Shown here: piece after piece, positions 43,446-54,606 of the stretch
Numbering within the stretch: the first letter of the stretch is position 1
Layout of the letters: each line of letters starts with the position of its first letter
NCBI GenBank assembly: GCA_022601195.1
Contig: JAHZIX010000048.1
Location: 62,001-126,000, forward strand
Direction of reading: 5' to 3'
Source of the DNA: Deltaproteobacteria bacterium
GTDB lineage: Bacteria > Acidobacteriota > Thermoanaerobaculia > Multivoradales > JAHZIX01
DNA length: 64,000 nt
Made by a program: the position numbers and the translations under genes
The notes under the pieces: generated by a model
The model's database searches: none
What the model was told of the DNA's origin: nothing
What the model saw: the letters and a program-made list of their open reading frames with translations, nothing else

Positions 43446-44324
43446 TCACTTGGAGATAGCAGACTCCAAGTAGGGAACCGGCTCTACCAACTCGAAGCCC
43501 GGGGCTTCCAAAGTCAGTTGTCGTAAATAATAGGAATGACCCGCTCCATAGAGCACTAGGATGCGATCCCCCGGCTCGGCGATGCGCCCAAGGTTCACAA
43601 AGATCCGCAAATTTCGCCCGTACCACCCTTCCACCAAGTCCGCCCCAGGGTATTCCTCTCCCTCGCCAATGGGTGCAAAGTATTCGATATAGCTTTGATG
43701 AGTCCGAAGAGCGAACTCAGGTGTATTGAAGACTGAGAAGCACTCCCGGATCGAGTTCTCTTTCAGCAGATCGCCCATTTCCTTCAAGAAAGCTTCCGCT
43801 ACCTTTCGGGAGTCATCGAGGCGCTGCCTTTGACCGTGCTCCTGAGCCCAGGCAGAAAGCGCACCGTAGGGAAAGGGACCGGGGGCATCAATGCCATAGA
43901 GCCTCGGATGCCCCAGCTTCTTGGCCAGGCGAAAACCGACCTGAACGACCTCGTTCCGATTCGGCTCCATCTCGCCTTGTAAGTAGTCCTGGTACCGGTC
44001 GAGGAATCCGCTGTGCTTGCGATCTTTGGCGCCATCGTCTCCAGACGAAGAGAAAGGCACCTCCACGGCGATTTTGGTGGGCTGAAAACGGGCCAGGCGG
44101 GTTACTAGTTCCTCGAGCTCGTTCTGGCGCTTGGGAGTCAGCACATCGTCTGCTTCCAAGTTGTGGACATCCCTCCCCGGATTGTCCATGTGATAGCTCC
44201 CCAGCACCATCACTTGTACCGCCTTCTCAGCTGCTGAGGTAGCTCCTGCACTGGCCAGGGCCACCAAGAGTGCCACCCCGATCTGTAAGGATGCCCGTTC
44301 AACGCGAGTTCTATCTGTGGTCAT
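43446..44324 (-). CDS. Exported DUF5694-like protein
   Basis: 292 residues from ATG 44324 (GGAGGTGA site). Signal peptide: LQIGVALLVALASAGATSAA. Diagnostic segments are VMVLGSYHMDNPGRDVHN, DVLTPKRQNELEELV, FQPTKIAVEV and the C-terminal VLYGAGHSYYLRQ. These match the DUF5694 family, distantly like TraB/ChaN proteins in which His, Glu and a GxGH motif may bind metal. The biochemical role of this family is not known to me. Confidence 0.8.
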   Translation of the reverse strand: MTTDRTRVERASLQIGVALLVALASAGATSAAEKAVQVMVLGSYHMDNPGRDVHNLEADDVLTPKRQNELEELVTRLARFQPTKIAVEVPFSSSGDDGAKDRKHSGFLDRYQDYLQGEMEPNRNEVVQVGFRLAKKLGHPRLYGIDAPGPFPYGALSAWAQEHGQRQRLDDSRKVAEAFLKEMGDLLKENSIRECFSVFNTPEFALRTHQSYIEYFAPIGEGEEYPGADLVEGWYGRNLRIFVNLGRIAEPGDRILVLYGAGHSYYLRQLTLEAPGFELVEPVPYLESAISK

Positions 44325-44339
44325 GCTGTCACCTCCAAG

Positions 44340-44399
44340 TGAGTTGACCAGCACTACGGCACCCTCGAGAACCGGGTTTCACAACAACGAAAGTTCTCT
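44340..44399. repeat. 55-nt dispersed repeat, copy 1
   Basis: About 75 % identical by eye to 45998-46057 in the same orientation (both contain CAGCACTACGG and CTCGA.AACCG). It lies in the upstream region of the DUF5694-like gene. Origin unknown. Confidence 0.5.
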
Positions 44400-44490
44400 T
44401 CCCGCGGGACCTTCCACGACAGTGTATTGGGCGGCCGCTATTGGAAGACGACCGCCCACAGTGCCTCTTCAGCACGAAGGTCGAACGTCA

Positions 44491-45372
44491 TCAACACCTA
44501 ACAAGGAGCAGATAGCGCCTCGTAACGGTGATGCACACCCTGAAGATCTGAACGATCTTCACGCGGATGCAGATGGAGATGAAGAGCAATAGGATGTCGA
44601 TGGAGATCCTTAGACCCGGGAAGAAGCGGAAGCGCACGACCAAGATGAACAGGAAAAAGCGCAAGTAGAGCTGGAAGACTTGTATCTGGATGATCGTGAG
44701 GCAGACCGTATAGCGCTTGAAAACCTCGATAATCTTGAAGATCTGCCCCCAGGGAAAGACGAAAATCACCCCCACGATGCGAGCCTTGAGGCTGACCAGG
44801 AAATCAACCATCACCAGGATTGTCTGGGTGAAACTCGTGACCTCACCGAAGGCGAAGGGACCAGCGGCCTCGTCGATATGATCAGCGTTCCCAATAATCT
44901 GATGACGAAAGTCCGACAGGGTTGCCTGGGCGCTCTCGGCATCTCCACTAGCCGCATAGCTCCCGACTTTCGCGAGAGAGTGGGTCAACTGATCCTTGAC
45001 CTCCGGATCGAGAAACTTAAGGCTACCGATAATGCCACTGAGACCCTCAGTAAAATCTGAAGCGGTGATCTTGATGTCCTCGCCTTCAGTGAACTTCGGG
45101 ACGTCCGGTGGGTCTCCATCCTCGAAGCGATCCAAGTCGTACTTCAAATCCAGTTCTTCGTCACCGTCGCCATTTGCACTCCGCAACTCGCCAAACAGAG
45201 AGCCGGGGGAGAACAGCTTGGAAGCTCCACCAGCTGCCAAAGCAGCGGCGCCGGTGCGAAGCAGATTACGCCGGGATGTGGCCTTGGGTTTCCTAGGCAA
45301 ATCCGAGCTCGGCGTCTCATTCTCGGCTAGAGAATCCAGTGTTTCGGCAGGATCCCGGTCCTTTTCCTTCAT
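44491..45372 (-). CDS. Tat-exported protein with long hydrophobic basic C-terminus
   Basis: 293 residues; perfect AAGGAGGT 8 nt before ATG 45372. A twin-arginine signal is clear (TSRRNLLRTGAAALAAGGASK). Residues about 70-190 are acidic and helical. The last 100 residues are extraordinary: alternating bulky hydrophobic and Arg/Lys residues (FFLFILVVRFRFFPGLRI, RVKIVQIFRVCITVTRRY), almost no acidic residues, 4 Cys. Codons in this part keep C-ending third positions (ATC, TTC, CTC, CGC), so it is read as genuine coding sequence. No family recognised. Possibly membrane-inserting strands or helices after export. Confidence 0.6.
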   Translation of the reverse strand: MKEKDRDPAETLDSLAENETPSSDLPRKPKATSRRNLLRTGAAALAAGGASKLFSPGSLFGELRSANGDGDEELDLKYDLDRFEDGDPPDVPKFTEGEDIKITASDFTEGLSGIIGSLKFLDPEVKDQLTHSLAKVGSYAASGDAESAQATLSDFRHQIIGNADHIDEAAGPFAFGEVTSFTQTILVMVDFLVSLKARIVGVIFVFPWGQIFKIIEVFKRYTVCLTIIQIQVFQLYLRFFLFILVVRFRFFPGLRISIDILLLFISICIRVKIVQIFRVCITVTRRYLLLVRC

Positions 45373-45459
45373 GAGAAATACCTCCTTACGGCAACGACCA
45401 TAGACCTTCTACGATCGAAAACAATATAAAACAGTAGTTAGAATATTTTCATATTCACA

Positions 45460-45488
45460 ATAATGCACTACATAACTAGCAGAGTCAA
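45460..45488 (-). promoter_or_regulatory. Sigma-70-type promoter of the Tat protein gene
   Basis: On the minus strand TTGACT (45483-45488), 17 nt, CATTAT (45460-45465). The surrounding 100 nt are clearly AT-rich compared with the rest of the window. Predicted start near 45453 gives an 80-nt leader. Confidence 0.55.
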
Positions 45489-45674
45489 CTATTGAGGACC
45501 GTTACTGGATGGGTTGTGGGAGGAAGAATCGCCAGATTTACCACTGGACTCCTAGGCTGATCAGAGTCGCCCTCCCTGCCAGTGATCTATGACGCGACTG
45601 GGCTAAGCGCGCTGTCGTGAAAAAAATGAGCGCTTCGAGAAGAGACGAACACTCCACCCAAAGAGGAGATTCAT

Positions 45675-45950
45675 TTGCGGGCACGGGCCCCGAGGTCATG
45701 TTTCTCGCTGATGTTGTTGGGCATTGCCCCCCTGGCCCAGAGCCCGGCAGTGTTCAGCGCCCAGAACGGCATCGGCCGCGATACGGAAGGAAGCGTCACC
45801 TTGGCCGTTGCCAACAATTGAAGCCTCGTCGTCCCCGCCAACCTTGGCTACTTCTTCGACGGCAGCAACGGTATCGCCGCCAACCGCAATCACCTCCAGA
45901 ACAACTACGGAAATCCTGCCACCAAGAATATGAATCCAAATCGAGCCTCT
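45675..45950 (+). pseudogene. Decayed copy of the two downstream paralogues
   Basis: Starts at TTG 45675 after AGAGGAGAT, like the live copy at 46434. It encodes PLAQSPAVFSAQNGIGRD, corresponding to AQSPAVLSAQNGIGR of the live gene, runs into a TGA after VANN, then continues in frame with LGYFFDGSNGIAANRN, which matches the middle of the paralogues (YFSDGGAAIASNRN; FFVDGGSGIAINDN). About 150 codons between these parts are missing, as is everything after, so it is a remnant with an internal deletion. Confidence 0.75.
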
Positions 45951-46213: not shown

Positions 46214-46380
46214 CTTCTCACCGAATTCGTCGCGAGACACCGAAGATGCCTGGAGGTCCAAGGAAGAGGGCGTTTTCTGCGACTTGAGGCAAGTGACACT
46301 CTGCCCTGAAGCAGATTCGCCTTCTGACGCCGAAGATCTAGGCAAATCCGGTGTCGCAGCAGAAGGTTGGGCTAGAGAAA
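46214..46380 (+). repeat. Structured 165-nt repeat, subfamily A
   Basis: Begins CTTCTCACC (46214-46222) and follows the 9246 copy throughout (CGAATTCGTCGCGAG, CGCCTTCTGACGCCG, CGCAGCAGAAG); the right end is worn (GGGCTAGAGAAAG). Its internal stem has GGCG against CGCC. It lies upstream of the gene starting at 46434, with a possible promoter role. Confidence 0.75.
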
Positions 46381-46433
46381 GTGACCAAGCACTTCGAGAA
46401 AATGGCGGGCTCCCCGTCAAGGAGGAGATTGAA

Positions 46434-47741
46434 TTGCGGATACGTATCCTTAGCTCTTTAGTGTCATTTTTGTTGTGGGGCATCACCCTTCACGCCCAAA
46501 GTCCAGCGGTGCTCAGTGCCCAGAACGGTATTGGACGGATAGGACCTACTCCGGCCGCAACGCTTCTCATGCCCTATTTCGAGGTCAACCTGAATATTCC
46601 CGGAACTACCGAGATGACCTTTACCAACGCCGAAGCGGCACCGGTTCTCGCCCACATCGTGTTCTGGACCAACTTGGGTTTCCCTAGTCTGGATTTCGAT
46701 ATCTTCCTAAGTGGCTTCGACACCCTGACCTTGGACATCGATGCCTTCTTTCGTACCGGCCTCATTCCCACCATGGGACCGTCGGTGAGCAACCAAGGCC
46801 CATTTTCGGAACCGAACCAAGACTTCCCGGGCTGCTCTTTTCCCCTTCCGAGTCAGCTTCCGGCTTCCCTGCTCGCCTACGTCCAGGCGGCGCATATCGG
46901 CCAGGAACTACCTCCCGGTTTTGGCGAATCAGGCTTGTGTGTTGCCAGGGAATCAGTCTCGCTTGCTCAGGGGTACATCACCTTGGACGTCGTGAACGAA
47001 TGCAGTCTCTCCTTCCCCGGCAACCCACAGTACTTCTCCGATGGCGGCGCTGCCATTGCCTCGAACCGAAATAGCCTTTGGGGCAGCTACCGGACCCCCG
47101 TTGGGGGATTCGACTTGAGATTCGAGGAACCTCTCGTGCACATAGAAGCCCGGGACTCTGTACAGAATGGATTCTGGGACCCCGGTGACTTTACTTTCTA
47201 CGGCAACCTAGAGGGCGGCTCCGCCGCTGACAATCGGGAACCCTTGGCGACCTCTTGGGGAGTTCACTATGAAATGGAAAACGGTGTCACGAGGCTGGTC
47301 TACTGGCGGGACAGCGGCGTCCGCGGCCAGGGCTTCACCTGTGGCAGCCTGCCAGCTCCCTACCCCCTCTCTATGGCTCGCATGATCGCTTTCGACGAAG
47401 AGGAGAACACCATCGAGCTTCCAGACTTCGGCAATACCCTTCGATGGAACACCGGCTTCGAGTTTGTCCCGAACATTGGGCCACTCTTCGAAGAGGGTTG
47501 GCTCTTCCTTGACTTCTCAGATCTCGACACTGGTCCTCTGGCCCCGGTGGGGCAGGCATTTGTCACGACCCAAGAGTTCGCCCCAACCGCAGCCACAAGC
47601 TTGGCCGCCCTCCCCTTCGATAGCGCCTTAGCCCCACGGCCCATCGGAACCCGTCTTGACCCAGTGTTTGCGGACGACTTCGAGAGCGGAGATACCTCTG
47701 CCTGGACTCTGACTTTTCCCCTGGGAGGCTTTCGGAAATGA
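46434..47741 (+). CDS. Exported protein of an unnamed paralogous family, tagged
   Basis: 435 residues. Start at TTG 46434, 5 nt after AAGGAGGAGA; an in-frame ATG at 46284 lies inside the structured repeat and is rejected. Signal peptide: ILSSLVSFLLWGITLHAQ. Conserved with the next gene: GIGRIGPTPAATLLMPYFEV, LAHIVFWTNLGFPSLDFDI, GPSVSNQGPFSEPNQDFPGC, CSFPLPSQLP, DNREPLATSW, YWRDSG and FDEEENTIELPDF. Four cysteines probably form disulfides. It ends with VFADDFESGDTSAWTLTFP plus 6 residues. Beta-rich, no catalytic motif seen; function unknown. ATGA overlap with the next gene. Confidence 0.75.
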   Translation: MRIRILSSLVSFLLWGITLHAQSPAVLSAQNGIGRIGPTPAATLLMPYFEVNLNIPGTTEMTFTNAEAAPVLAHIVFWTNLGFPSLDFDIFLSGFDTLTLDIDAFFRTGLIPTMGPSVSNQGPFSEPNQDFPGCSFPLPSQLPASLLAYVQAAHIGQELPPGFGESGLCVARESVSLAQGYITLDVVNECSLSFPGNPQYFSDGGAAIASNRNSLWGSYRTPVGGFDLRFEEPLVHIEARDSVQNGFWDPGDFTFYGNLEGGSAADNREPLATSWGVHYEMENGVTRLVYWRDSGVRGQGFTCGSLPAPYPLSMARMIAFDEEENTIELPDFGNTLRWNTGFEFVPNIGPLFEEGWLFLDFSDLDTGPLAPVGQAFVTTQEFAPTAATSLAALPFDSALAPRPIGTRLDPVFADDFESGDTSAWTLTFPLGGFRK

Positions 47742-49084
47742 CAACTTTGAGAACAGCCCTTCGCCAACGACGAACCCTGCCCCTGGCCTTCTATCTTCTG
47801 GCTGTGGGAGCTCTCTTTACAGACCTAGCAGTTTCCAAGGCACTGGCCCAGAGCCCTGCCCAACTCAACGCTGCTCACGGCATTGGAGCCCTGGACATAC
47901 GCCCCTCGGCCACTCTGTTACTGCCCTATTGGGAGGTGGAGCTGGATGGTGATGAGTCCCTTTTGGTTCGGGTCCGCAACACAAGCTCCGAATCGACCCT
48001 AGCTCATGTCTCCCTGTGGACCGACATGGCCAGACCTACTCTGAATTTCCATATTTATCTAACTGGTTTTGACACGGTGCTCCTGGATCTGGCCCAGCTT
48101 TTTAACCAAGGGCTGCTGCCCACCACCGGGCCCAGCGTGACCGATCCCGGCCCATACTCCCTGCCTAACCAAGAATTTCCGGGGTGCAGTTTTCCTTTGC
48201 CGTCCATCCTGCCAGAAGCTCTCCGTGGATATATTCGTGCCCTTCACACCGGGCAAGCCGCCCCAGCGGGATTCCCAAACACGGGCCTTTGCGGGGCAAG
48301 CCTGCCAGGGGACGGCCGAGCGAGAGGATTTCTGCTCATCAATGTAGTCGACGCATGCTCGTCGGGATTCCCAGATCAGCTCGGATTCTTTGTCGATGGC
48401 GGGTCGGGGATCGCTATCAATGACAACCGCTTATGGGGTGAATACCTGTGGCAAGACAGTGCTAATTCGCTGGGCCTCTCGGACCCACTGGTCGCCATCG
48501 AGGCGAGATCCTCTGTAGCAGGAGGTTTCTGGGATGCCCAAGACCACACCTTCTACGCCCGCTACTTGAACCAATCGGCCATCGACAACCGAGAACCTCT
48601 AGCGACCACCTGGGCCCTCGGCTATACCCGCGGTGATGCCGAGGGGGAAGGACCTACAGAGCTTCTCTGCTGGCGAGATTCGGGCCTCGACGACTCCTTC
48701 TTCTTTCCCTGTAGCCAGGATCCGGACCAGGATGCCGTCTCACCCTACCGGCTCGCCCAGTCGCGGCTGGTGGTCTTTGACCAGGAGGAAAACCTCGTGG
48801 AGCTTCCCGGCGAGCCCTTTTCCCCACCCAACGACCCAGACTTCTTCGCCATCTGCCCTTTCGCCACCAACCGGGTGAACCTGAGCGATGTGCCGATGCT
48901 CTTTCCCGAAGGCTGGATGTACCTCGATCTCAACACCAGCTCCGGTGCCCTTTCGGACCCCATCAAGCAGTCCCACGTCACGGTGGTCAACACCAGATCC
49001 GGCTCGACCCATGGTGCCCACGTCGCCACTCCTCTGGACAATGCCCTAGCTCCCGTGGAGGATCCCTTTCCCGAACAGAATTGA
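47738..49084 (+). CDS. Exported paralogue of the preceding gene, untagged
   Basis: 448 residues, ATG 47738 overlapping the previous stop. Signal peptide: LAFYLLAVGALFTDLAVSKALAQ shown in part (LLAVGALFTDLAVSKALA). Same family blocks as its neighbour: HGIGALDIRPSATLLLPYWE, LAHVSLWTDMARPTLNFHIY, GLLPTTGPSVTDPGPYSLPN, FPGCSFPLPS, DNREPLATTWALGY, CWRDSG, FDQEENLVELP. The main difference is the C-terminus: it stops at EDPFPEQN without the DGFESG-type tag. The pair may form a heteromer with one anchored partner; that is inference. Confidence 0.75.
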   Translation: MTTLRTALRQRRTLPLAFYLLAVGALFTDLAVSKALAQSPAQLNAAHGIGALDIRPSATLLLPYWEVELDGDESLLVRVRNTSSESTLAHVSLWTDMARPTLNFHIYLTGFDTVLLDLAQLFNQGLLPTTGPSVTDPGPYSLPNQEFPGCSFPLPSILPEALRGYIRALHTGQAAPAGFPNTGLCGASLPGDGRARGFLLINVVDACSSGFPDQLGFFVDGGSGIAINDNRLWGEYLWQDSANSLGLSDPLVAIEARSSVAGGFWDAQDHTFYARYLNQSAIDNREPLATTWALGYTRGDAEGEGPTELLCWRDSGLDDSFFFPCSQDPDQDAVSPYRLAQSRLVVFDQEENLVELPGEPFSPPNDPDFFAICPFATNRVNLSDVPMLFPEGWMYLDLNTSSGALSDPIKQSHVTVVNTRSGSTHGAHVATPLDNALAPVEDPFPEQN

Positions 49085-49721: not shown

Positions 49722-52421
49722 CTACCCTTTGGGGTCGTCTTGGTCGCCATAGATCTCCTGCCACCATTCCGGCTGCCCCTTGAGCTTCCATTCGAACCAA
49801 GCCAGGATGGTCTGGACCCAGATCTCTTGGTGCTCAGCCCCCACAATGCGGTGATTCTCACCCTCGAAGGTGACGAATTCGACGTCACGTTCGAGGATCT
49901 CCAGGGCGGTGTACATCTGCTGGCTTTCACCGATGGGCACATTGGTGTCGGCGTCACCGTGGAGTAGCAGCAGAGGGGTGTTGATCTTGTCGGCGCTAAA
50001 GAGGGGGCTCTGCTCCAGGTAGAGCTCGCGGTTGTTCCAGGGATAGCTGCCTGCACTGGCTACGGAGCTGTAGCTGTAGCCCCACCAACCTTCTCCCCAA
50101 TAGCTGCTCAAAGAGCTGATGCCGGCATGGGAAATGGCAGCGGAGAAGAGGTCCGTCTGGGTGAGCAGGTACATGGTCATGAAGCCGCCGTAGGAGGCTC
50201 CCAAGCAGCCGACCCGATCCGAGTCCAGGTGAGGCCGTGAGTCCAGCAGCTCTTGGGTCCCCTGGATGATTTCCTGAGCTGTGGTGCGCCCCCAGTTGTT
50301 GAGGTGGCGAGCCGAATACTCCTGCCCCCAACCGGTGGCTCCGCTGGGTTGGGGAACGTACACTGCATAGCCGAGGGAGGCCCAGAGATGCCAGGGCCAG
50401 CGGCTCCCCCAAGAACGACTCGTGGGAACGGTGCCGCCGTAGTAGTAGACGATCAGAGGAATCTTCTCGCCCTCCGCCAGGCTACCCGCCTCGAACCCTG
50501 GGGGATAGTAGATGCGTCCAGGAACGGTTCCCCCAGCAGCTTCGAAACTCCAATCCTCGACTCTCCCTAGGACATAGGAAGAGTCCGCTTCTTCCTCGCT
50601 GGAAGGCAAGAGCTTCTTGACTTCCCCGGCATCGCCCCCCCTTCCGGAAGACGCTGGCTCGGAAAACACTGGCTCGGAAAACACTGCCCGGGAAACGACG
50701 GCAAGAGGCTCGGTGATGGATCCCCCAAAAGCAGCGAGGAGATCGCCCTGGCGAGAAACGCTCACTCCGTTGACCACTTCCATCCCCGTCTCCAGGGCCG
50801 TAAAAGTGCCGTCGGTCAGGTCATAGCGATAGGGCACGACACGGCTACCTTGCTGAGCTCGCAGAATGAGTCGATCCCGTCCTGCCCACGCTACCTGCTC
50901 CACTGCCGGGTCGAAATCGACCGTGATGGGACGAGTCTCCCCGGATTGCCGGTGCAGCAGATAGAGCTGGCCGTCGTAGTTGTTAGCCGTGGCTCCTTCC
51001 CCAAGAGCATTACCGAGAACGCCAAAGGCCGAAGGGCCGGCCTGAATGAGGATCTCCTCTCCACCGGGCTGATAGGTGGCAGCGCCGAACCAGGTGACGG
51101 AGCTGATGTGACGAGGCTCGAGGCTGGCCAACTCCATTTCGTAGAGGTCGGATCGGCTGAAGGGTTGCTGCCGAAGATCGTAGGGAGTGGTAGAAAACAG
51201 CACTCTGGAGCCGTCCCGGGAAATATCCTCGAGAGCGATAGAATCCCCTCCGGCGGTCAGGCGGCGCCTGCTGCCAGAGTCCAAGCTCAACTGGTAGAGG
51301 TGGGCGTGATCTCGGTAGCCGCTCACCCGGTCTCGCAAGCCCCGGAAGCGTTTGACCCCTCTCTCGTCAGCCTCGCTTTCCTGCTGAGCCACGTAGATGA
51401 GGGATTTGCCGTCAGGCAGCCAGTAGAGCTCCTGGAATCCCTCGATCTTCGTAGCCACGCGGCGCAACTGACCACTGACCAACTCGCCGAAAAACAGATC
51501 CGAATGGCTCTCCTCGGTGGTGGCATAGATGAACCCATCACCGGAAGGAGCCCAAGTGAAGCCTGTCTCTCCACCTCTTAAGGTCCGCACTGAACGACCA
51601 CTGGCAACCTCGAAGATCTCGATCCAAGATTCCGTCTTGGCCGGAGGCGCCTTGGCATGGTGCCAACGCACCGCCAACCAAGTACCATCCGCTGACAGGT
51701 CGACCCCGGACACTCGTTTGCGAGTCAGAAAATCTCCCATACGCACGGGGCGCGCCGGGTCCGTGGAGAAGGAGAGAGCCGCCCCGAGATCCTTGGCCAG
51801 CTCTGCTGCGGTCTGATCATTCGCCACCAATCGAGCCCGGACGGCGGGGGAGGTCTCCCCTTCCTCCGAGGGCATCATCACGGCCTTCAAAAGCAGCAAG
51901 TGTTTGCCAGGAATGAGAGTGACCTCTCCCGTGGCAAGCCTCTCTCCCTCCGCCTCCACTTCGACCTCTTCCCCATCGAGGAAAACCTTGAGATGGTCGA
52001 AAGGAGTCACCTCGAGTTGGGCGCTGATGAAGCGCGTCGCTGAAATATAGGTGGCGAAGTAGAAGACCGCCGGCTTCTCTCCTGGGGCGACCGCAAAGAA
52101 CTCTCCTGCCTCGCGCTTCCAACGCCTCGCCGGCAAGCCAGCGACCTCCACCTCGGCTCGGTCCTGAGGCCAGAGATCCTGCCCAGGAACGAGAGGGGAA
52201 TCCAGGAAGTCTTCGGCCTCGAACCCCCCTGAGGCTGCGTCATGAAATGCCGGCAGGGCTACCTCAATGGGCTGTAGCGTCAACCAAGCTGCGGTCTCCA
52301 TACCAGGAGCCACCGCAACTTTAGGGGGCTTTTTTTTGGCCATAGCAGGGGACGACAGCAGTAACAGGCCGACCAGCAGGCCGCTGAAAGCCCAGGGGCG
52401 GCGGATTGTCTTTTCAACCAT
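49722..52421 (-). CDS. Exported S9-family prolyl oligopeptidase-type peptidase
   Basis: 899 residues with signal peptide (FSGLLVGLLLLSSPAMA). An N-terminal beta domain (40-215) precedes a seven-bladed propeller (WIEIFEVASGRSVRTLRGGE and similar) and an alpha/beta-hydrolase domain. Catalytic Ser about residue 742 in GASYGG, Asp in HGDADTNVP, His in GENHRI, all in the canonical forms of S9 dipeptidyl- or acylaminoacyl-peptidases. It hydrolyses short peptides in the periplasm. It starts 3 nt after the M14 gene, with GGAAGGGAG inside the end of that gene: one operon. A Ser/Glu-rich repeat (FSEPVFSEPASS) sits in the linker. Confidence 0.92.
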   Translation of the reverse strand: MVEKTIRRPWAFSGLLVGLLLLSSPAMAKKKPPKVAVAPGMETAAWLTLQPIEVALPAFHDAASGGFEAEDFLDSPLVPGQDLWPQDRAEVEVAGLPARRWKREAGEFFAVAPGEKPAVFYFATYISATRFISAQLEVTPFDHLKVFLDGEEVEVEAEGERLATGEVTLIPGKHLLLLKAVMMPSEEGETSPAVRARLVANDQTAAELAKDLGAALSFSTDPARPVRMGDFLTRKRVSGVDLSADGTWLAVRWHHAKAPPAKTESWIEIFEVASGRSVRTLRGGETGFTWAPSGDGFIYATTEESHSDLFFGELVSGQLRRVATKIEGFQELYWLPDGKSLIYVAQQESEADERGVKRFRGLRDRVSGYRDHAHLYQLSLDSGSRRRLTAGGDSIALEDISRDGSRVLFSTTPYDLRQQPFSRSDLYEMELASLEPRHISSVTWFGAATYQPGGEEILIQAGPSAFGVLGNALGEGATANNYDGQLYLLHRQSGETRPITVDFDPAVEQVAWAGRDRLILRAQQGSRVVPYRYDLTDGTFTALETGMEVVNGVSVSRQGDLLAAFGGSITEPLAVVSRAVFSEPVFSEPASSGRGGDAGEVKKLLPSSEEEADSSYVLGRVEDWSFEAAGGTVPGRIYYPPGFEAGSLAEGEKIPLIVYYYGGTVPTSRSWGSRWPWHLWASLGYAVYVPQPSGATGWGQEYSARHLNNWGRTTAQEIIQGTQELLDSRPHLDSDRVGCLGASYGGFMTMYLLTQTDLFSAAISHAGISSLSSYWGEGWWGYSYSSVASAGSYPWNNRELYLEQSPLFSADKINTPLLLLHGDADTNVPIGESQQMYTALEILERDVEFVTFEGENHRIVGAEHQEIWVQTILAWFEWKLKGQPEWWQEIYGDQDDPKG

Positions 52422-52424
52422 GGA

Positions 52425-54314
52425 TTATCTCCCTTCCCCGGCAGGAGCCACTTCCCGGCCTACGGGGTAGACCTTCCACCTAGCATCGGCGAAGGGGGTT
52501 TGTTCATAGAACCAGCGCAACCGAGCATTGGCGCTACCGGCAAATTCTGCATCGTTGGCAAGCTTGTCGCGAAACCGTTGGGCCAGCTCCGGGTCTTCGG
52601 CGATCATGCGCTCCGCCAGGGGTTCTGCCACATAGGCCTCGAAGTATTCCGTTCGCTGCAAGACCTCCAAAAAGAATCCCCATTGGAAAAAAGAATCAGG
52701 AGAAGCCGGCTCGAGGAGCAGCACCGCTAGGTCCCCCAAGGCTTGGTCAGTAGGGATCCGAACCGAACCGGCGGGATAGGTTTGCCGGGATCGGAACGGC
52801 TCCGGATTCGCCTTGACCCGGGCATGGCCCTCGAAAGCCCTGGGTTCGATCTCGGCATCATTTAATCGGTACAGCTCTACTTCGACCTCTCTCCCCTGGG
52901 AGATTTGCTCCATGGCAATGCCATGATCCTTCAACCGTTCGATGACCTCAGACCAGACAGGGCTCAGCCAATAGGCTGCTGGGCGACGAACCGTGAGGTC
53001 CGGCTCGGTGGTGTCGATCCACGGAATCTCCATCTCCATGGGCTGAGAGGTCCACTCCTGTCTCAGCCCTCCGGAGATGGGCGACAAAGTGAGCTTAGAC
53101 TCGTAGCCCCGAAAAAGCAGCGTCGGTGGCGTTTCGCCGAGGGCTGCATAGTCCGCCATCTTGAAGGTGAGGGGCATCGGATCCCGCCTGGTCTCGCGAT
53201 CCCGTTGACTGGCGCGACGCAACTCGGCTCCGTGCTTTGCCAGAGTCGCCAGACTGGACTCCAGAAGGATGTAAGTGCCCAAGACTCTCTGGTCGTAGGG
53301 CTTCAAAGAGTGATTTTCCACCAATACAGTGGGCAAATGGCGAAGATCGCCATAGGAATTGGAAAACCGCGGACCAGCGGTCCAACCAAAGTTGCCCTTC
53401 GAAGGGTCCTTGGAATCGATTAGGAAAATCAGCGGCCCAGGGATATGACCGGCGGTGGCCAGGTCTCTCTCCAGAGCCGGGGAAAGTCGCTCGTCCAGCC
53501 ACGCTGCTCCCTGGGGAGAGTGGGCATGACGCCCGCTATAGCCAAAGGTGATGTCGTATTGATAGTCCGCTCCATCGGTGACGTGAAGGTCCAGGTAGAG
53601 GTCCGGCTTCCACCGGTTGATGGCAGCGACCAGAGCACGTACTTCCGGAGTATCCAATTTGGAGAAGTCTCGGTTGAGATTTTGATTGCGTGCATTGGTG
53701 CGCCAGCCCATTTCCCGAGGGCCACGCTGATTGATGCGGCCATAGGCCGAGAAGCGCTCGTGGCCATCGACGTTGAGAATCGGCACGAAAAGAAAATGAG
53801 CTCCCTCGAGAAGATGGCGGCGGCTGCCGCCGACGGTGAGGTCTCGCAAAAGCATGAGGCCAGCGTCCTTGCCGTCGATCTCCCCGGAGTGAATGCCGCC
53901 ATGAGCGAGCAAGATGGGCTTCCCGGAGGCTGCCAAGGCTTCCGGGGTCGAGCTGCCGTCAGAGGCTGCCACGACCATCCACACATCTCGTCCCTCATGG
54001 CTCTTGCCGAGGGAGTGCAAGGAGAGCTGGGGAGAGGTGGCGACGAGCTTTTTCAACCAGGCGATGGACTCGTCGTAGCGAGGCGTCTCTATCAGGCCCG
54101 AACGTTCCGCTGGAGTGATCCACGGATCTTCCGGAGAGGCCATCAGCTCTCGGCTGACTCCATTCCAGGGACGTTCAGGAGGGAGTAGCTCACTGGAGGG
54201 GGAATCTGCCCGAGCGACGGAGCCGCTTAGGAGCATCGCTATCCCTATGAAAACCAGGCTGACCGCCTGCCCCAATCGTTCCCAACGAGGGTGTTGTCCT
54301 ACCGTTCTCGCCAT
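52425..54314 (-). CDS. Exported M14-type zinc carboxypeptidase
   Basis: 629 residues from ATG 54314 (AAAAGGAGCC upstream); signal peptide AVSLVFIGIAMLLSGSVARA. Zinc ligands: His about 140 and Glu about 143 in GGIHSGEIDG, third His about 241 in LYLDLHVTDG. Substrate-side motif WRTNARNQNLNRDFSKLDTP in part (NQNLNRDF) and a candidate catalytic Glu in VLVENHSL. Removes C-terminal residues from peptides or peptidoglycan stems in the periplasm. The C-terminal 200 residues are an unassigned beta domain. First gene of a two-gene operon with the S9 peptidase. Confidence 0.9.
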   Translation of the reverse strand: MARTVGQHPRWERLGQAVSLVFIGIAMLLSGSVARADSPSSELLPPERPWNGVSRELMASPEDPWITPAERSGLIETPRYDESIAWLKKLVATSPQLSLHSLGKSHEGRDVWMVVAASDGSSTPEALAASGKPILLAHGGIHSGEIDGKDAGLMLLRDLTVGGSRRHLLEGAHFLFVPILNVDGHERFSAYGRINQRGPREMGWRTNARNQNLNRDFSKLDTPEVRALVAAINRWKPDLYLDLHVTDGADYQYDITFGYSGRHAHSPQGAAWLDERLSPALERDLATAGHIPGPLIFLIDSKDPSKGNFGWTAGPRFSNSYGDLRHLPTVLVENHSLKPYDQRVLGTYILLESSLATLAKHGAELRRASQRDRETRRDPMPLTFKMADYAALGETPPTLLFRGYESKLTLSPISGGLRQEWTSQPMEMEIPWIDTTEPDLTVRRPAAYWLSPVWSEVIERLKDHGIAMEQISQGREVEVELYRLNDAEIEPRAFEGHARVKANPEPFRSRQTYPAGSVRIPTDQALGDLAVLLLEPASPDSFFQWGFFLEVLQRTEYFEAYVAEPLAERMIAEDPELAQRFRDKLANDAEFAGSANARLRWFYEQTPFADARWKVYPVGREVAPAGEGR

Positions 54315-54606
54315 GGTGGCTCCTTTTCGGCCCATCTATGTGAGCCAACTATTCGACCTAGGTTTTCGACCCGGGCTCTCGACCGAGATTGAAGGCGGAA
54401 GTTTACTCTGCCCCAGGTTTCAAACGTAGAACTGGCCTCGAAGTTTGGCCTCCCCTGGGAGCGGTATCCGCCCGCGGAGGCCCCTAATCGGTCACTCCTG
54501 ACAGTTTTATGACAATTGAGAATGCAAGCCTGACAGACCGAATGGATCCGCGTCGGTATACTCCACGAGCCTTTCGGCAAACGCTGATTACCTGGAGAGA
54601 ACCATC

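Follow-up and report, generated by a model that had tools for sequence, protein, structure and literature searches.

A putative twin-arginine signal protein with an extreme hydrophobic and basic C-terminal extension

The window, by which we mean the whole stretch of 64,000 nucleotides analysed here, carries on its minus strand an open reading frame (ORF) of 293 amino acids that is preceded by a strong Shine-Dalgarno site (Table 1). Promoter-like matches are weak, and three were found in the region on both strands together, compared with 0.8 +/- 1.0 in shuffled sequences. The 96-nt stretch at 44400-44495 has a folding energy of -43.3 kcal/mol (z -3.28), better than all 200 shuffles. The hairpin at 44428-44458 has no U run and is absent from the list of the terminator scan, and we regard it as a possible transcription end predicted from the sequence. 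Beyond the hairpin, the strand of the ORF carries a DUF5694 gene (43446-44354), and on the other flank a divergent gene (46284-47741) belongs to an unnamed multi-copy family. The ORF looks like a single-gene unit between the hairpin and the divergent gene.

Table 1. Positions in the window of the ORF, its parts and the signals that flank it.
Feature	Position	Strand	Basis
ORF, 293 aa, ATG to TGA	44491..45372	(-)	ORF list and translation
Putative Shine-Dalgarno site AAGGAGGT, 7 nt upstream of the ATG	45380..45387	(-)	Read from the sequence
Sigma-70-like promoter match TTGACT-17-CATTAT	45460..45488	(-)	Pattern match, weak
Putative twin-arginine-type signal, residues 32-56 (TSRRNLLRTGAAALAAGGASKLFSP)	45205..45279	(-)	Motif by eye and profile scores
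Acidic linker, residues 66-101	45070..45177	(-)	Sequence; single-sequence model
FIMAH-like helical domain (predicted), residues about 104-193	44794..45063	(-)	Weak PF22888 match and AF2 model
Hydrophobic-basic tail, residues 191-293	44494..44802	(-)	Composition, codon choice, base periodicity
G+C-rich hairpin, starting 32 nt 3' of the ORF stop	44428..44458	(-)	Inverted repeat I9

Two adjacent genes at 46284-49084 belong to the unnamed family, which is also present on contigs C2 and C8 of the same genome (G000). The family gave nine matches in this genome, counting the self-match and two short ones, and it was matched in 17 of the 21 genomes searched, with several copies side by side. No Pfam model was found for either gene, nor an NCBIfam model for the first. 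Just upstream of the ORF, a remnant of the family at 45621-45779 shows 58% identity to residues 33-85 and contains one TGA. Moreover, 120 nt at 45659-45778 share 70% identity with 46418-46537, which suggests a decayed tandem copy. The first 29 codons of the ORF at 46284-47741 (46284-46370) recur elsewhere in the genome with 79% identity, at G000:C18:260999-261085; the true start of that ORF may therefore be located further downstream, with 46284-46370 representing a putative repeated upstream element. Farther upstream of the 293-aa ORF, genes for an S9 peptidase and an M14 carboxypeptidase adjoin each other at 49722-54335. The two genes are likewise neighbours in G002 and G003 (L195 and L196), which belong to the same taxonomic family; in both, the contig ends before the place of the ORF. 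The M14 gene is absent from a genome of the same genus at E 1e-20. In the stretches around members of the unnamed gene family in G001, G002 and G003, the other neighbours were absent except for one weak sigma-factor match.

The protein begins with a charged leader (residues 1-31), followed by a twin-arginine-type signal with the motif S-R-R-N-L-L at residues 33-38. This signal fits the minimal Tat motif R-R-x-phi-phi, as given in an excerpt of PMC10924467. The genome encodes one TatC match, which scores 227.4 bits (cut-off 25.1). The preliminary description had assigned the protein to Tat export; the motif and the presence of TatC speak for that assignment, but both Tat profiles score below their curated cut-offs (PF10518, 11.4 bits against 22.7; TIGR01409, 13.8 bits against 16.7).

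Residues 60-190 contain 28 Asp/Glu and 9 Lys/Arg. The acidic linker was modelled without helix or strand (pLDDT below 50, single-sequence model), and a single-sequence AF2 model of residues 103-201 alone predicts four helices (mean pLDDT 72.8, pTM 0.56). These data are consistent with the acidic helical domain that had initially been proposed to follow the signal. The domain, predicted to be a helical bundle of about 80-90 residues, resembles FIMAH (PF22888); the match is weak, covers profile positions 19-68 and scores 18.2 bits with the whole protein, 20.2 bits with residues 58-190 and 20.6 bits in the genome search, all below the gathering cut-off of 24.8. When the domain model was compared with known folds, 60 chains were matched at Z >=8, many of them unrelated, with talin and designed bundles among them. 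Third in this list was the C-terminal helical part of the GH92 mannosidase 7nsn (residues 1321-1411; Z 10.0, rmsd 2.2, 87 aligned residues), whose likeness to our domain is a common helical arrangement only; we would guess that this part of 7nsn is itself a FIMAH domain. Fold searches with the full model and with the domain model gave no match at E 0.001. Because the fold matches are numerous and generic, "helical bundle" is all that can be said of the domain. A literature search for the FIMAH domain found nothing related.

FIMAH is found above the cut-off in 9 of 145 genomes of the class. In clear members, 3-17 residues separate the match from the stop in all eight readable cases (L006, L007, L008, L108, L109, L110, L112 and L113; the count leaves aside L111, which is above the cut-off, and L114 and L126, which are below it). 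In the ORF, by comparison, 123 residues follow the match, some 100 of which lie past the domain, and no recognised domain stands in front. Matches below the cut-off are followed by 7-61 residues (L115, L117, L118, L122, L123, L125, L128) or by 156-256 residues (L116, L119, L120, L121, L127), and thus the C-terminal rule applies to clear FIMAH members only. Since above-cut-off FIMAH domains are C-terminal in the relatives and 123 more residues are present here, the tail appears to be an extension added to the domain. The position of clear FIMAH domains at the extreme C-terminus in this class may, in its own right, hint at a function in sorting or attachment.

The tail was originally described as hydrophobic and basic and almost free of Asp/Glu, and our counts bear this out: its 103 residues include 60 Phe/Ile/Leu/Val, 15 Lys/Arg, 2 Asp/Glu and 4 Ala/Gly, with a net charge of +13. 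For comparison, 4544 windows of the same length (103 residues) were drawn from the putative genes that lie in 1.25 Mb of this genome, with the ORF excluded. None had four or fewer Ala/Gly, the maximum of Phe/Ile/Leu/Val was 53, and of the four windows with at least 50 such residues none had at least 12 Lys/Arg; the tail is more extreme than all 4544. We also surveyed 14,267 open frames of at least 80 residues in 2.45 Mb (2.05 Mb of the same genome and 0.4 Mb of a relative). Eleven passed a loose composition filter, among which the tail ranked first with a score of 57 versus 44 for the runner-up; the other ten contain 7-8 Ala/Gly per 80 residues, and the tail contains 1. On a stricter list, the top two are followed by 11 frames that look like membrane proteins and have 11-27 Ala/Gly, so that the tail, with 4 in 103, is unlike the membrane proteins of this genome. 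Likewise, among 17 ORFs with an RR-like signal, the last 100 residues include 57 Phe/Ile/Leu/Val in this ORF and 32 in the next. The examined parts of the genome contain nothing of similar composition. No tandem repeats were found, and internal duplication was not above codon shuffles (P 0.43) or above chance at the protein level (P 0.61). Elsewhere, L067:2844-3083 (+) holds a long hydrophobic-basic frame similar to the tail, which is stop-free on the antisense side and spanned by an acidic putative gene; this frame is probably a shadow ORF and a trap for gene callers.

By its codon usage, the tail resembles coding sequence read in frame. C occupies 54 of its 103 third positions and G another 31, as the earlier remark on C-rich third positions implied. 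Its GC3 of 0.83 is higher than in 20 long ORFs of the window (0.63-0.70), a difference that points the other way. The absence of stops has a P of 0.03 by base shuffling. Mutual information between base and codon phase is 0.226 bits, whereas 1000 shuffles gave 0.054 at most; the value exceeds those of all 4544 gene windows and of all 42 intergenic windows, which were selected as having no ORF of 100 aa (maximum 0.056). Given its amino acids, codon choice in the tail is at the 95th percentile of the gene windows (97th against genes of the window alone), falling to the 77th without Phe and Ile and to the 69th without Phe, Ile, Leu and Val. Coding log-odds are positive in windows within the ORF in its frame and become negative once past the stop. 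Of the six frames across the tail, that of the ORF is the single stop-free one and has the best codon choice; the other five contain 1-13 stops, and the two other minus frames, with 3 stops and 1 stop, show poor codon choice. The sense-minus-antisense codon difference of the tail exceeds that of 615 of 615 gene windows, a blunt test in which sense lies above antisense in just 67% of those windows and in which residues 61-190 of the ORF itself score higher in antisense (0.149) than in sense (0.080). Codon choice, base periodicity and a coding signal that ends at the ORF stop together agree with the initial view that the tail is not random read-through. Moreover, the only stop-free frame, codons at the 95th percentile and periodicity above that of intergenic DNA make a frameshift or newly exposed untranslated DNA unlikely; a second frame continuing at the break, which would mark the tail as an artefact, was looked for and is absent.

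Homologue searches were carried out at several depths, in sets of 147, 148 and 396 genomes that overlap one another. Among 147 relatives (own genome included), the whole protein had no convincing homologue. It matched two of the 147 genomes at E <=0.01, one of them its own; the other match (28% identity), which falls on the tail, was rejected, as it contains two internal stops. Of 148 genomes of the class, the whole protein matched ten at E <=0.1, the best non-self match at 0.0043 and the rest at 0.04-0.09, none of them convincing. Residues 58-190 matched three of 396 genomes of the phylum at E <=0.01, namely its own and two with 27-34% identity and an internal stop; the ORFs listed for one of these two (L032) showed no such architecture. 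Pattern scans, which reach close relatives only, confirmed none of 52 stretches for the whole protein and none of 192 for residues 103-201 in a species-genome collection, and none of three for the whole protein in viral contigs. No homologue of the whole protein was found among phages, plasmids and solved structures, and the tail alone had no match in Pfam, PHROGs or solved structures. At the DNA level, the matches listed for 44480-45000 in 21 genomes included only short ones beyond self (best E 0.014), and Rfam returned two matches, both sub-threshold. With no homologue found, there is no sign of selection keeping the tail, which we count against the reading preferred below.

The physical properties of the tail are mixed. 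The Kyte-Doolittle mean over 19 residues reaches 2.27 at residues 256-274. However, on the biological insertion scale, insertion is unfavourable for every segment of 16, 19 or 21 residues, with +3.5 (flat) or +1.0 (end-weighted) kcal/mol for the best 19-mer. The longest stretches without Lys, Arg, Asp or Glu have 14 and 17 residues, which together with the unfavourable insertion makes ordinary transmembrane helices doubtful despite the Kyte-Doolittle value. A single-sequence AF2 model of the tail predicts helices with pLDDT of 34-68. The net charge of +13 combined with the hydrophobic stretches would favour an association with the surface of acidic lipids.

Our preferred reading, quite possible though short of probable, is that the ORF encodes an exported protein whose tail keeps it at the membrane; that the ORF is a lineage-specific orphan gene is part of this same tentative judgement. 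The twin-arginine-type signal would send the protein out of the cytoplasm, placing the acidic linker and the FIMAH-like bundle on the outer face of the cytoplasmic membrane. The cationic hydrophobic extension of 100 residues would then hold the protein there: its basic side chains would sit at the acidic phospholipid head groups, and the hydrophobic runs between them, at most 17 residues long, would either enter the bilayer or associate as paired strands. The codon signature, the extension past a C-terminal domain, the extreme composition, the Kyte-Doolittle maximum, the net charge, the presence of TatC and the precedent of Tat substrates with C-terminal anchors (PMC10924467) argue for this reading, whereas the bluntness of the codon test, the insertion scale, the scarcity of Ala/Gly, the Tat scores below cut-off and the low pLDDT of the tail argue against it.

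Codons for acidic residues on the plus strand (GAT, GAA, GAC and GAG) become ATC, TTC, GTC and CTC on the minus strand. Complementary codons are known to invert hydropathy, a rule stated in an excerpt of PMC2206014, and an origin of the tail from an acidic stretch read backwards is therefore possible. On this account, which we consider unlikely but of some weight, the strand opposite an acidic coding stretch came, by inversion or insertion, to be read as the tail, which would be young and perhaps functionless. The aligned plus-strand reading indeed contains 20 Asp, 17 Glu and 11 Ala in 103 residues. In four of four mixture models, its amino-acid make-up is more ordinary than that of the tail by about 7-26 log units, and a model of antisense readings fits the tail better than one of real proteins. 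The runner-up in the 2.45 Mb survey is also stop-free on its antisense side, as expected of a gene shadow. Against such an origin, the plus-strand reading lacks a start and is broken by two TAG stops. Its codon choice ranks at the 0.3 percentile, and its third-position GC is 0.44, compared with a mean of 0.67 in 65 acidic windows that overlap one another and include at least one from this ORF. Furthermore, the single windows closest to the tail in composition are real sense sequences (0.092 versus 0.124 for antisense), the first 190 residues of the ORF have no inverted copy (local alignment P 0.23), the coding signal ends at the ORF stop, and none of the DNA matches listed is a longer copy at another place in the genome. 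The plus-strand reading itself matched 4 of 144 genomes at E <=0.01, its own included; the others (0.0019-0.0075) were ascribed to acidic composition. It had no match among plasmids or in Pfam.

An alternative that we regard as improbable is that the tail forms a beta-rich self-assembling module, amyloid- or barrel-like, by which the protein would polymerise extracellularly or within the outer membrane. The alternation of hydrophobic and basic residues noted in the preliminary description exceeds chance over the whole tail (56 switches versus 46.2 expected, P 0.02), and the moment exceeds shuffles at 160 degrees (P 0.03) and at 160-170 degrees (P 0.03-0.04) but not at 100 degrees (P 0.77). The effect is mild, however: P is 0.09 at 180 degrees and the signal is lost in parts of the tail (P 0.11-0.74). 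The AF2 model has low-confidence helices, and no solved chain matches the sequence. Still more doubtful is a toxin-like or antimicrobial role in which the exported domain would deliver a membrane-active tail; the cationic and hydrophobic composition is the sole point in its favour. PADLOC and PHROGs gave no match, no immunity partner was recognised among the scanned neighbours, and the gene stands alone between the hairpin and the divergent gene. Finally, that the tail results from a frameshift in the sequencing or from a stop recently lost near residue 190, though in keeping with above-cut-off FIMAH domains that end the protein in the relatives read, is very improbable given that the tail uses the sole stop-free frame with the best codon choice of six and has base-phase information beyond that of every intergenic window.

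It is conceivable, although we would not expect it, that a Tat-type substrate in one lineage gained a membrane-binding or self-assembling domain of 100 residues that represents a new class of C-terminal anchor. Such an anchor would be built from Ile, Phe, Leu, Val and Arg almost without Ala or Gly, and Tat would carry it across together with a folded domain. If the protein is exported with its tail, it would test how much hydrophobic sequence Tat tolerates and whether anchors beyond one helix get inserted. The ORF also offers a compact case of a domain that gained a long, codon-adapted extension of untraceable source, and possibly of the reuse of an antisense acidic stretch as a hydrophobic protein.

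The preliminary description held that a tail of this kind is unexpected in a Tat substrate. This was overstated, as Tat substrates with a hydrophobic C-terminal anchor, usually a single helix, are described in the excerpt of PMC10924467. Therefore, the architecture of the ORF, if it is Tat-exported, would be a variant rather than a contradiction. HyaA, HybO and HybA combine an N-terminal RR signal with a hydrophobic C-terminus in one chain, as the ORF appears to do, and the iron-sulfur subunit of formate dehydrogenase and the newer examples of PMC10924467 are further Tat-dependent C-tail-anchored proteins. The ORF differs from them in that it has no recognised co-factor domain and that its tail is almost without Ala or Gly. 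Moreover, where the known proteins carry a single C-terminal helix, the ORF carries about 100 residues with a Lys or Arg every 1-18 positions.
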